The notes under the pieces are model-generated. The model had not been told where the DNA came from. It was given only the letters and a program-made list of their open reading frames with translations, and searched no databases. Below are positions 44,003-48,149 of a stretch of DNA of 64,000 bases, piece after piece; the stretch's first letter is position 1, and each line of letters begins with the position of its first letter. The position numbers were made by a program, and so were the translations under genes. The DNA comes from Bacteroidia bacterium (lineage in GTDB: Bacteria > Bacteroidota > Ignavibacteria > SZUA-365): NCBI GenBank assembly GCA_027493955.1, contig JAOSJT010000001.1, positions 3,211,131-3,275,130 on the forward strand. Direction: 5' to 3'.

Positions 44003-44207
44003 CCGGCTTCAATTTGCTACAAGACGGGTCCGGATTAACCGGCTTTTCGTACCATGCTAGGCCTGTCAACGGTGCAGGTTGATTCCACCGATTCGATCCG
44101 GTCGGATTACCTTCAGTTTGCAGAACGAACAAAATTACTCCGGGTATCCCGAGCTGTACGAGGCACTCGATCTGAGAACGCGTATGATCTCATTTTCAGG
44201 AGAATCT

Positions 44208-45677
44208 ATGAAAAAACAATCGCTACTGTTAGCAGCTGCAACCACCTTCTTCCTGTGCGTGTTCGTGAACGTCACGGTGGCGCAGGACTATGTCGGTAGT
44301 CAAAGTTGCGCTATGTGCCACAATGCTGTGCACACCGACTGGAAGGCCTCCGGTCATCCGTATAAACTTCAGAAACTGTCCGGCGGACAGCCTCCCGCGT
44401 ATCCCGCCGGACTCTCATCGCGCAAACAGGTAGGCCCGCAGGTGGACTACACCATCCAGCCCGGTGTACCGCAACCCCCTCAAGGGTACTCGTGGGACCA
44501 GATTGGCTGGGTCCTCGGCGGTTATCACTCCAATGCGCGTTTTCTGGATACCGAAGGGTACGTGATCATCGGTCCCGCCGCTCAGTATAATCGACCAACC
44601 AACCGTTATGTGAATTACGAACAGGCAACCCCCGGCAAAAAGCGCTATGATTTCTCCTGTTATCGCTGTCATACGACCGGCGCGAGCAAGGACAAAACAC
44701 CCGCTTTTGAAGCATTCCCCGGCATCGAAGGCAGCTGGGCTGAAACCGGTGTCGGCTGCGAAGGCTGTCACGGGCCCGGCAGCGCGCATGTTGCAAATCC
44801 GACCAACAAGCCTCCGAAAGATGGTCTCGCGACTTGCAACAACTGTCACGCCCGCGACAGAACAGACACGAATCAGCGTGTCGAGTGGCTTCCAATGACG
44901 GTGAACAGTATCGCGACGGGCTTTATCCGTCATCGTGAACAGGGTGATATGATGGCCGCATCGCAGCATGGCAAGGGCTCGATGACCTGCGCAACCTGCC
45001 ACAATCCCCACAAAAGCGTCTATTATGAAGCCGGCGGCATCAAGGCCGCGCCGAATTGCCAAACGTGCCATCCCTCGAAGTCCATACCGGGTCACACCGC
45101 CGCGACGTGCACGGATTGTCACATGCCCAAGGCGGCGAGGAATGCAGACGGCCTCAGTCCGTATGTCTCAGAGCAAAGCGCGCACTTCTGGAAAATTCTC
45201 ACTGATCCGATTACGCGTTTCGACAACCTCGATACAACCTTCGTTGCCGGCAAGAAATACATCAGTGTTGATGGCGACGGGTTATCCGGGATGACACTCG
45301 ACTACACATGTCTCCAGTGTCATGTCAGTCAGGACGTGACATGGGCTTCCGGGTATGCGAAAGACATCCACACTATTGGTGTCAGCGTTGAGAACGTCCA
45401 CGGCTTGCCCACAGCGTTCGGTTTGACGCAAAACTTCCCCAACCCCTTCAATCCGTCCACAACCATCGGCTACAATGTGCCCGTGCGTACCCATGTGCGT
45501 CTCGAAGTACTCGACAGCCAGGGTCGTCTGATCACAACATTGGTTGATCAGACCATGGAGCCGGGACGATACAATGCCGTATTCCACGCGGAATCCACGC
45601 CGAGCGGAATCTACTTCTACCGCATGCAATCGCAGCATGGACCCACGCTGAGCAAGAAGATGGCGCTGGTGAAATAG
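44208..45677 (+). CDS. Octaheme c-type cytochrome with T9SS sorting domain
   Basis: The 489-residue protein has a signal peptide (LLLAAATTFFLCVFVNVTVAQ) and eight CxxCH heme-binding motifs: CAMCH at residue 34, then CYRCH, CEGCH, CNNCH, CATCH, CQTCH, CTDCH and CLQCH. After the last heme comes a full type A T9SS tail (LTQNFPNPFNPSTTIGYNVP, LEVLDSQGR, TPSGIYFYRM), so the hemes should end up on the cell surface or outside. CEGCHGPGSAH and HMPKAARN segments resemble multiheme cytochromes of the c554/NrfA-like pool. Start at ATG 44208 after AGGAG. A strong terminator follows. Electron transfer to an external acceptor is inferred. Confidence 0.93.
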   Translation: MKKQSLLLAAATTFFLCVFVNVTVAQDYVGSQSCAMCHNAVHTDWKASGHPYKLQKLSGGQPPAYPAGLSSRKQVGPQVDYTIQPGVPQPPQGYSWDQIGWVLGGYHSNARFLDTEGYVIIGPAAQYNRPTNRYVNYEQATPGKKRYDFSCYRCHTTGASKDKTPAFEAFPGIEGSWAETGVGCEGCHGPGSAHVANPTNKPPKDGLATCNNCHARDRTDTNQRVEWLPMTVNSIATGFIRHREQGDMMAASQHGKGSMTCATCHNPHKSVYYEAGGIKAAPNCQTCHPSKSIPGHTAATCTDCHMPKAARNADGLSPYVSEQSAHFWKILTDPITRFDNLDTTFVAGKKYISVDGDGLSGMTLDYTCLQCHVSQDVTWASGYAKDIHTIGVSVENVHGLPTAFGLTQNFPNPFNPSTTIGYNVPVRTHVRLEVLDSQGRLITTLVDQTMEPGRYNAVFHAESTPSGIYFYRMQSQHGPTLSKKMALVK

Positions 45678-46563: not shown

Positions 46564-47029
46564 TGCAATGCGCGGTAATTGAGGATTCCGTTTGGGAGAA
46601 TATAGCGAGCCTCGTCGAGGGATCAAACCGCAAAACGATACCGGGCAGGGAGCGAGGCGCGTTGGGTATCGCTGCATTCCCGCAGCTGAACATGAAATGG
46701 GCGATACATGAATCGCCATAGGAGCGGGAACGCTACCGGAGGTGGGCGTTTCATGAGTCGCCCTTTTCCGGAATCCAGGTAAGAAATGGGCGATACATGA
46801 ATCGCCCATTTCCCACCCCGGAAGCGATTACCATTCCGACAAATCCGCATCCGACACCATACATCCCCCACAAACGCCCCCCTCACTCGCCCTGCCGCAG
46901 CACTCGCTACCCTCTCCCCAGACCCATTTCCACGACTCACCCAAAACGCTCTCTCTCCGCTCGGCCCGCAAGGACCCGGAGTGCCTCTGTTACCATGGAC
47001 GAACGCGAAATCTGTGCGCCCGATCACGC
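46564..47029. other. Repeat-bearing intergenic region between rlpA and the RAYT relative
   Basis: No gene is supported. The left half holds three REP-like palindromes (46695-46811, listed separately). The right half (about 46812-47000) is strikingly C-rich on the plus strand with runs such as CCCCAGACCC, and shows no protein-like signal on either strand. The open frames here translate the repeats. Confidence 0.6.
46695..46811. repeat. Three REP-like palindromes
   Basis: Element 1 (core 46699-46717) and element 3 (46788-46807) share GGGCGATACATGAATCGCC. Element 3 extends to a 28-base near-perfect palindrome from 46784 to 46811. Element 2 (46744-46763) is GGGCGTTTCATGAGTCGCCC. Centres are about 46-50 bases apart. 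The reverse-complement unit of the array at 474-1065 contains GTGGGCGTTCCATGAAGC, closest to element 2, so both loci seem to belong to one palindromic family. Confidence 0.85.
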
Positions 47030-47797
47030 TTACTCGGAAAGATAGATCCTGCCCGGACCCAGATTCCGTATCACCCTGCCCGATCTGTCGCTAATACCAC
47101 CGGCGCCGCCGCCCCGCCGCGCGCCCGTCAGCAGCAACACGCGACCGAGAAACATCGTCTCGCCGAATACTTCCGCCATGGCTCCCGCGGAGACCTGCTT
47201 CACCCTGCGCTTTCCCGCGCCGCCGAATTCCGAGCGCAACGCCGTCTGGAGCGTCGATGCCCGCTGCTCCTTCCTCCGCGACGCCGGGGAAACCACCACG
47301 TGACGCCACTCTTCCCGCAGCGCCGCACAGACCGCGGCGAACTCCTTTTCGTCTGCCAGAACGCATGAGGCGTAACGCCGTGCCCACACGTCACCACCGC
47401 TTGTACCCTGCAGTTCATTGATTCGATGTGCGCTGTTCATCTTCAAATACCCCATGAACACCGGAAGGGTCATGATCCGGCGGTAGTGCACCCATTCATC
47501 GCTGTCTCGCGGCGGCTCCTCCTGAATGTTGCGCCGCTTGGTGATTTCAAGCGCGAGTTCCACCTCTGAGGGACGAATGCTTAGCTCGTGAATACTGATG
47601 CACCGGAAATTCTGCAGCGCCTGACCGAGCACATCGAGAAATGCGCGTCCGATATCGCTGAGCGTGGTCACGCCGTTTTTCGTCGTTCCCAGGATCTCCG
47701 CATCGCCCTCGGTCTTGAAGACGACCAGATGCTTCGCGGGCTGCGAATAGTCATAATCCGGGTCGCGACGCGTGCTCAATTGTGTAAGTCGTTTCAT
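47030..47797 (-). CDS. RAYT (REP-associated tyrosine transposase) relative lacking the HUH motif
   Basis: The 255-residue protein aligns by eye with the Y1/IS200-like RAYT family: RRDPDYDYSQPAKHLVVFKT matches the RAYT opening (Y-D-Y-S-Q-x-G-x-Y-F-V-T), then TTLSDIGRAF. IHELSIRPSEVELALEI lies where active members have a MPNHxHxxI motif. MGYLKMNSAHRINELQGT and DVWARRYASCVLADEKEF match the GT-x-x-VWQRxYY region with the catalytic Tyr (Tyr142). Both metal-binding His residues are replaced by Glu (Glu78, Glu80), so DNA nicking by the usual mechanism should be lost. The last 80 residues are rich in Gly/Arg and unfamiliar. Start at ATG 47797 after GGGAG. Three REP-like palindromes lie about 220 bases downstream, fitting the RAYT-REP pairing. 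Confidence 0.75.
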   Translation of the reverse strand: MKRLTQLSTRRDPDYDYSQPAKHLVVFKTEGDAEILGTTKNGVTTLSDIGRAFLDVLGQALQNFRCISIHELSIRPSEVELALEITKRRNIQEEPPRDSDEWVHYRRIMTLPVFMGYLKMNSAHRINELQGTSGGDVWARRYASCVLADEKEFAAVCAALREEWRHVVVSPASRRKEQRASTLQTALRSEFGGAGKRRVKQVSAGAMAEVFGETMFLGRVLLLTGARRGGGAGGISDRSGRVIRNLGPGRIYLSE

Positions 47798-48149
47798 GTT
47801 CATGCTCCCTGATGAATTCATGCAAAACGCGAAATTGAAAAGTATCGGTACTCTCGAAAAGCATGCAAGGCAGAAATCCGTAGCCGCTGATGCCGCAGAA
47901 GTTTAACGGTAGTTGTGCTCGCTCATGCGGTATCCATATCTCCATGGGAGCCGGCAACTCACTGCGCACAGTACTGAAACTCCTCTCGTGTATGTCGTCG
48001 GACCTTCCGGACTTCGCCGCTCGGGCCGGTACAACGGGATGCACACATAACTCGTGTATCGAAGCTATGGTCGTGCATCAACTGTTTTTCGTATTTGTAT
48101 CTGTGTACTTTCCCATATTCACAAGTAAACCTCGTGCGAAAGGAATCCC
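47798..48149. other. Divergent intergenic region
   Basis: Between the RAYT relative (-) and the DUF1801 gene (+). I see no gene and no clear repeat. The last 80 bases before 48150 are A+T-richer (TTTTTCGTATTTGTATC, CCCATATTCACAAG) and probably contain the promoter of the DUF1801 gene, but no convincing -35/-10 pair stands out. Confidence 0.45.

Follow-up and report, generated by a model that had tools for sequence, protein, structure and literature searches.

The gene under study lies on the minus strand of the window (the whole 64,000-nucleotide stretch of DNA analysed here) at positions 47030-47797, exactly where the preliminary description had placed it without giving a strand, and its 255-codon frame is intact, as had also been described, with AGGGAGC before the ATG (Table 1). 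The protein opens with DPDYDYSQ, carries the motifs LKMNSAHRIN and VWARRY, and in place of the MPNHxH of RAYTs it has RPSEVEL, with Glu78 and Glu80 standing at the two columns of the HUH histidines, a replacement already recognized in the first reading of the sequence.

Table 1. Coordinates in the window of the HUH-less RAYT-like gene, its diagnostic codons and the flanking elements of its repeat unit.
Feature	Position	Strand	Basis
CDS, HUH-less RAYT-like protein, 255 aa (stop included)	47030..47797	-	ORF, fold match, paralogues
Codon 78, Glu, first HUH His column; relatives His 40/40; paralogues E/C/S (n=14 aligned)	47564..47566	-	alignment
Codon 80, Glu, second HUH His column; relatives His 40/40; paralogues E 13/14, H in L030	47558..47560	-	alignment
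Codon 159, Ala, catalytic Tyr column (Y115, E. coli TnpA-REP); relatives Tyr 40/40	47321..47323	-	alignment; model helix 150-164
Codon 163, Glu, third metal-ligand column (N119, E. coli TnpA-REP, PMC6006769); relatives Asn 40/40	47309..47311	-	alignment
Codon 139, Ala, Q95 column (GTAG-reading region); relatives Gln 36/40, paralogues 0/14	47381..47383	-	alignment
Codon 148, Ala, R104 column (GTAG-reading region); relatives Arg 39/40, paralogues 0/14	47354..47356	-	alignment
Codon 142, Tyr, structural aromatic rather than nucleophile	47372..47374	-	alignment
Ribosome-binding site AGGGAGCATGAAC, conserved across subfamily A copies	47798..47810	-	
Conserved 5' leader of unit (TTTCTGCCTTG at the left edge, near -86); by eye resembles a promoter	47798..47883	-	
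3' untranslated stretch common to copies, stop codon to palindromes	46808..47029	-	
REP-like palindrome GGGCGATACATGAATCGCCC	46788..46807	.	
REP-like palindrome GGGCGTTTCATGAGTCGCCC	46744..46763	.	
REP-like palindrome GGGCGATACATGAATCGCCA	46699..46718	.	

The structure prediction that the preliminary description had proposed was carried out as an AlphaFold (AF2) model of the window protein, built from its 15 paralogues alone, in which residues 10-165 mostly reach pLDDT 70-91 and the C-terminal ~85 residues (169-255) stay below 50. When the core of this model was searched with Foldseek, the 30 PDB chains found were all Y1 transposases (probability 1.00, E <= 1e-3), including ISDra2, IS608, a Sulfolobus enzyme and the RAYT 4er8, and since only paralogues entered the model, this assignment to the family is independent of the motif alignment. 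By its modelled fold, that of Y1 transposases, the window protein is a relative of RAYT/TnpA-REP without HUH. It is not matched by Pfam PF01797 (Y1_Tnp) at the cut-off of 23 bits, to which L022 and L027 reach about 12-13 bits, and sequence searches of Pfam, NCBIfam and PDB gave no real match for it; those to DLG guanylate kinases, at E about 0.1, were rejected as chance.

In an alignment of 40 RAYTs, from the same genome and from other, related genomes, with 14 of the HUH-less paralogues (the truncated L029 was omitted), His78 is present in 40/40 RAYTs against 0/14 of the clade, and His80 in 40/40 against 1/14, the single case being L030, which rules out the shift of the HUH alignment that had been named as a possible refutation. 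The nucleophilic Tyr of column 159, where the window protein has Ala, and the third metal-ligand Asn of column 163 are likewise found in all 40 RAYTs and in none of the 14; the assignment of E. coli Y115 to column 159 depends on the Y---NP motif (catalytic Tyr, then Asn), of which the clade has neither residue (Tyr 0/14, Asn 0/14). The preliminary description held that the catalytic Tyr was retained, as Tyr142, but this column, Y in 35 and F in 5 of the active relatives, is a structural one, and the loss of the Tyr as well makes the case for the loss of nicking stronger. The equivalents of the GTAG readers have also gone: the Q95 column holds Gln in 36/40 relatives and the R104 column Arg in 39/40, each against 0/14 in the clade. 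These losses, common to 15 paralogues in one genome, are far beyond chance, and from their sequences the window protein and its paralogues are predicted to be unable to cut and rejoin single-stranded REP DNA.

The complete genome of 5.24 Mb contains 15 such paralogues, forming two subfamilies and a singleton: (i) subfamily A, with nine members (the window copy, L017 at 98% identity, and seven at 65-69%) plus a short A fragment, L031; (ii) subfamily B, with five at 35-38% identity; and (iii) the singleton L030, at 25%. The frames are intact in 13/15, the exceptions being L021, whose third codon is TGA, and the truncated L029, and two HUH-bearing RAYTs, L032 and L034, are found in the same genome. 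The maximum-likelihood tree places 14 HUH-less proteins in a single clade (support 100/96, in all bootstrap trees), sister to the HUH-bearing L043/L044 of two other genera of the same family (97/93), to be read with the long stem of the clade and the long branch of L030 in mind; in this tree none of the closest HUH-bearing relatives was located in the host genome. Common descent with the RAYTs of the phylum, and from a single ancestor, is thus shown at the level of sequence phylogeny. The search for HUH-less homologues, also proposed in the preliminary description, returned the 15 paralogues of the host genome; several hundred genomes from the order, class and phylum of the host yielded no further member, in searches that reach close relatives best, and all the RAYT relatives inspected in other genomes retain HUH. 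A motif scan of GTDB contigs, a collection that may leave out the host genome, gave no match, and none was found in a search for plasmid relatives. The beginning of the window itself (1-153 and 388-1050, L130) comprises the 3' end of L030 (C1:3210621-3211283) and GGGAGCTTCATGGAACGCCC palindromes arrayed in tandem every 37 bp; L030, without HUH, keeps a single His (LPASAHI) and has arrays at both sides.

Selection on the paralogues, another check proposed at the outset, was measured pairwise as dN/dS by Nei-Gojobori counts, with Fisher tests on whole-gene pairs. Among the close A pairs (dS about 0.1-0.18) the dN/dS of the core is 0.05-0.2, between L025 and L026 it is 0.04, and between the window copy and the other, divergent A copies 0.14-0.2, with the C-terminal tail looser (0.15-0.6) and Fisher tests on five close whole-gene pairs giving p from 3e-6 to 5e-19; between L017 and the window copy there are 2 synonymous and 4 nonsynonymous changes (p 0.45), too few for a signal of selection. 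These comparisons show, through their substitution counts, strong purifying selection on the catalytic core among the intact members of A and B, and since the catalytic loss is older than these splits, the product conserved is a protein without its catalytic residues.

On the 3' side of each A copy there are two to seven palindromes of the GGGCGATACATGAATCGCCC type, at a spacing of 45 bp, and of the 48 exact A palindromes in the genome 33 lie beside or 3' of ten A copies and 15 are orphans, spread over six loci that have no RAYT gene. Every exact copy of the B palindrome, TTCGATTCATGAATCGA, is 3' of the five B genes, with none away from them, and L030 sits between arrays of GGGAGCTTCATGGAACGCCC. 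Single-stranded A and B palindromes fold into 12-bp hairpins, the L030 form being weak. The palindromes are specific to A, B and the singleton, and between A and B both arms have changed in step, while a CATG centre is common to all of them and to the REP of L044; this HUH-bearing sister is flanked by GTAGGGCGGATTCATGAATCCGCCCTAC, with the identical TTCATGAA centre and GTAG at both feet. The GTAG tag, present at the HUH-bearing L044, L032 and L034 (the latter two with palindromes of a different type, GTAGAGAC...GTCTCTAC), occurs at 0/33 A sites near genes, 0/15 orphan A sites and 0/13 B matches. An exact scan for the 22-base palindrome in the GTDB contigs, which may not include the host genome, gave no match. 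Longer tandem units contain some of the orphan A palindromes (151 bp in L114, 137 bp in L115, 118 bp in L116 and 126 bp in L117), and there are large orphan arrays at L118 (C1:783083-783768), L124 (C1:1217899-1218762) and L125 (C1:2117662-2118087), those of L118 and L125 with a period of mostly 37 bp, with no RAYT-like gene near the three within the stretches analysed.

On the left, the homology of the A copies stops at a common edge, 86 bases upstream of the start codon, and on the right that of some of them extends past the array; no terminal inverted repeats of the units were seen. The ~220 nt that follow the stop codon (L018-L024 and the window) are conserved, G-rich and C-poor, with a core like GCGGGGAGG..AGCGT that is common even to subfamilies A and B; a conserved RNA fold there is unsupported by covariation (term +0.67), and no Rfam family was found. 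A 1112-bp block (-13 to +1099) is 98.65% identical between the window copy and L017, while their leaders, each homologous to those of other A copies (z about 3-6), have diverged from one another. Recent transposition was rejected as the origin of this pair, because diverged but homologous leaders precede the near-identical block, which from its sequence is best read as the result of gene conversion. Five A units (L018-L021 and L023; dS about 0.1-0.18) dispersed after catalysis was lost, so that they were moved by something besides their own protein or copied by another process. That the spread of a unit encoding a non-nicking protein needs another mover counts against the reading favoured below.

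Among the known systems, the nearest is class 2 of RAYT/TnpA-REP, and within it subclass 2.4, of Bacteroidetes and Cyanobacteria, with long double-foot REPs (Quentin et al., PMC6006769). The dead clade shares with class 2 the fold, the DYS opening, the KxxSAxRIN helix, the W-x-x-x-Y motif, the flanking palindromes and the kinship with the HUH-bearing L043/L044; it differs from it in lacking HUH, the catalytic Tyr and the ligand Asn, in having neither the WQ nor the R of the GTAG reader and no GTAG in its palindromes, in an additional C-terminal tail of about 85-110 residues, and in a copy number of about 15 in this genome, where RAYTs are usually one to few. Copies of the flanking palindromes elsewhere in the genome, a RAYT-like trait, are found for A (the 15 exact orphans at six loci) but not for B. 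The IS200/IS605 TnpA proteins (IS608, ISDra2) have the Y1 transposase fold in common with the window protein, but they are catalytically competent and belong to true insertion sequences, whereas the dead clade lacks all the catalytic residues. The TIRYTs (tyrosine transposases with terminal inverted repeats; PMC3733652) likewise present a RAYT-like gene in a unit without GTAG repeats; however, every aligned member retains HUH and Tyr, and their terminal repeats contrast with the palindromic arrays on the 3' side of the dead-clade units. The RAYT/TIRYT survey found HUH and Tyr conserved throughout its aligned members (PMC3733652), and the main phylogenomic survey of RAYTs excluded sequences without the core motifs as non-functional (PMC6006769). 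No description of an HUH-less, selected, multi-copy RAYT family was found among the open-access papers searched, which is weak evidence of absence. By descent and fold, the window protein is, on these comparisons, a RAYT; by the residues that define the function, it is not a working one.

Beyond the observed residue losses, fold, single ancestry, purifying selection and GTAG-less pairing of protein and palindrome subfamilies, we consider it probable that a nicking-dead RAYT has been retained and multiplied as a putative REP-palindrome-binding protein. A RAYT of the Bacteroidota type, with HUH-bearing sisters in related genera, would have lost both His, the nucleophilic Tyr and the ligand Asn, together with the readers of the GTAG tag, while keeping the fold; from then on it would have bound its own REP-like palindromes, with specificity for their structure or their sequence, as hairpins or as duplex; kept for this, it would have multiplied within one genome to about 15 units, each consisting of leader, gene, 3' stretch and palindrome array. 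The bound protein could act on the expression of its own unit (autoregulation), on the 3' ends of messengers, or on the organization of the DNA or nucleoid. That cutting residues, tag-reading residues and the tag itself were lost together agrees with a shift from cutting to binding, and in the TnpA-REP of S. maltophilia, changes in GTAG block cleavage and leave binding unaffected (PMC8266576); intact copies under selection, with palindrome families of their own, suggest a cutter turned DNA-binding protein. The view that the protein was dead or repurposed, for example as a putative REP-binding or regulatory protein, is thus the best supported, with the catalytic residues gone, selection strong and subfamily-specific palindromes adjoining the genes, and the argument against simple decay is upheld by the open frames and by a dN/dS well below 1.

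Gene and palindromes travel as one unit, so their proximity alone is no proof of recognition, and it could be that the palindromes are no longer bound, that arrays and genes simply belong to one repeated unit of old date, and that the protein was preserved for something unrelated, such as a protein partner or general binding of single-stranded DNA. The arrays do fall inside the duplicated unit and some palindromes are far from any copy; but A and B, only 35-38% identical, have different and intact palindromes in which the CATG centre was kept, and the tag-reading residues were lost in parallel with the tag, so that we regard this explanation as unlikely, though worth keeping in view. We would also give only a small chance to the idea that the dead protein is selected because, once on its palindromes, it recruits or guides another machine for copying the unit, whether the replication or repair apparatus of the host or a different transposase acting in trans; if true, the element's own function would have passed from the transposase to a binder derived from it, and a family of dead transposases would still be spreading.

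It is quite improbable that the dead clade acts as a dominant negative or repressor, competing with L032 and L034 for palindromes and limiting transposition: the two HUH-bearing RAYTs coexist with it in the genome, but they adjoin different, GTAG-tagged palindromes, and the closest HUH-bearing relatives of the clade were not found there. An active enzyme with replaced chemistry, in which Glu78 and Glu80 or another set of residues would hold the metal, with a new nucleophile, and the units would be self-mobile, might account for a dispersal later than the loss and for the Glu80 kept in 13/14 aligned paralogues; nevertheless, position 78 varies between E, C and S and position 159 between E, R, A and L, no new conserved nucleophile was found in the Tyr helix of the 14 aligned proteins, and the clade-specific invariants are just R89, T110 and Y117, so that this is very improbable. 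That these are decaying pseudogenes of an extinct RAYT, intact-looking through youth or gene conversion, as the stop in L021, the truncation of L029, the fragment L031 and the apparently recent conversion of the window copy and L017 might suggest, is barely credible, being contradicted by the sequence evidence for selection, with 13/15 frames open and dN/dS far below 1 in many pairs at dS from 0.08 to 1.2.

RAYTs have been described as domesticated transposases whose function has not been pinned down, with the cutting of REP DNA assumed to be central, and evolution appears here to have split binding from cutting. The clade would offer a testable case for a host role of RAYTs beyond nicking, in which the A and B subfamilies are a natural swap of specificity. 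The RAYT ORF of the HUH-bearing L034 itself contains a GTAG-tagged palindrome, GTAGAGACAAGGCATGCCTTGTCTCTAC (2885-2913), as reported for subclass 2.4. Elsewhere in the window, positions 44079-45677 encode a protein resembling multihaem cytochromes; at its end it carries a sorting signal like those of type IX secretion (FPNPFNPST...), which points to a host of the Bacteroidota type.
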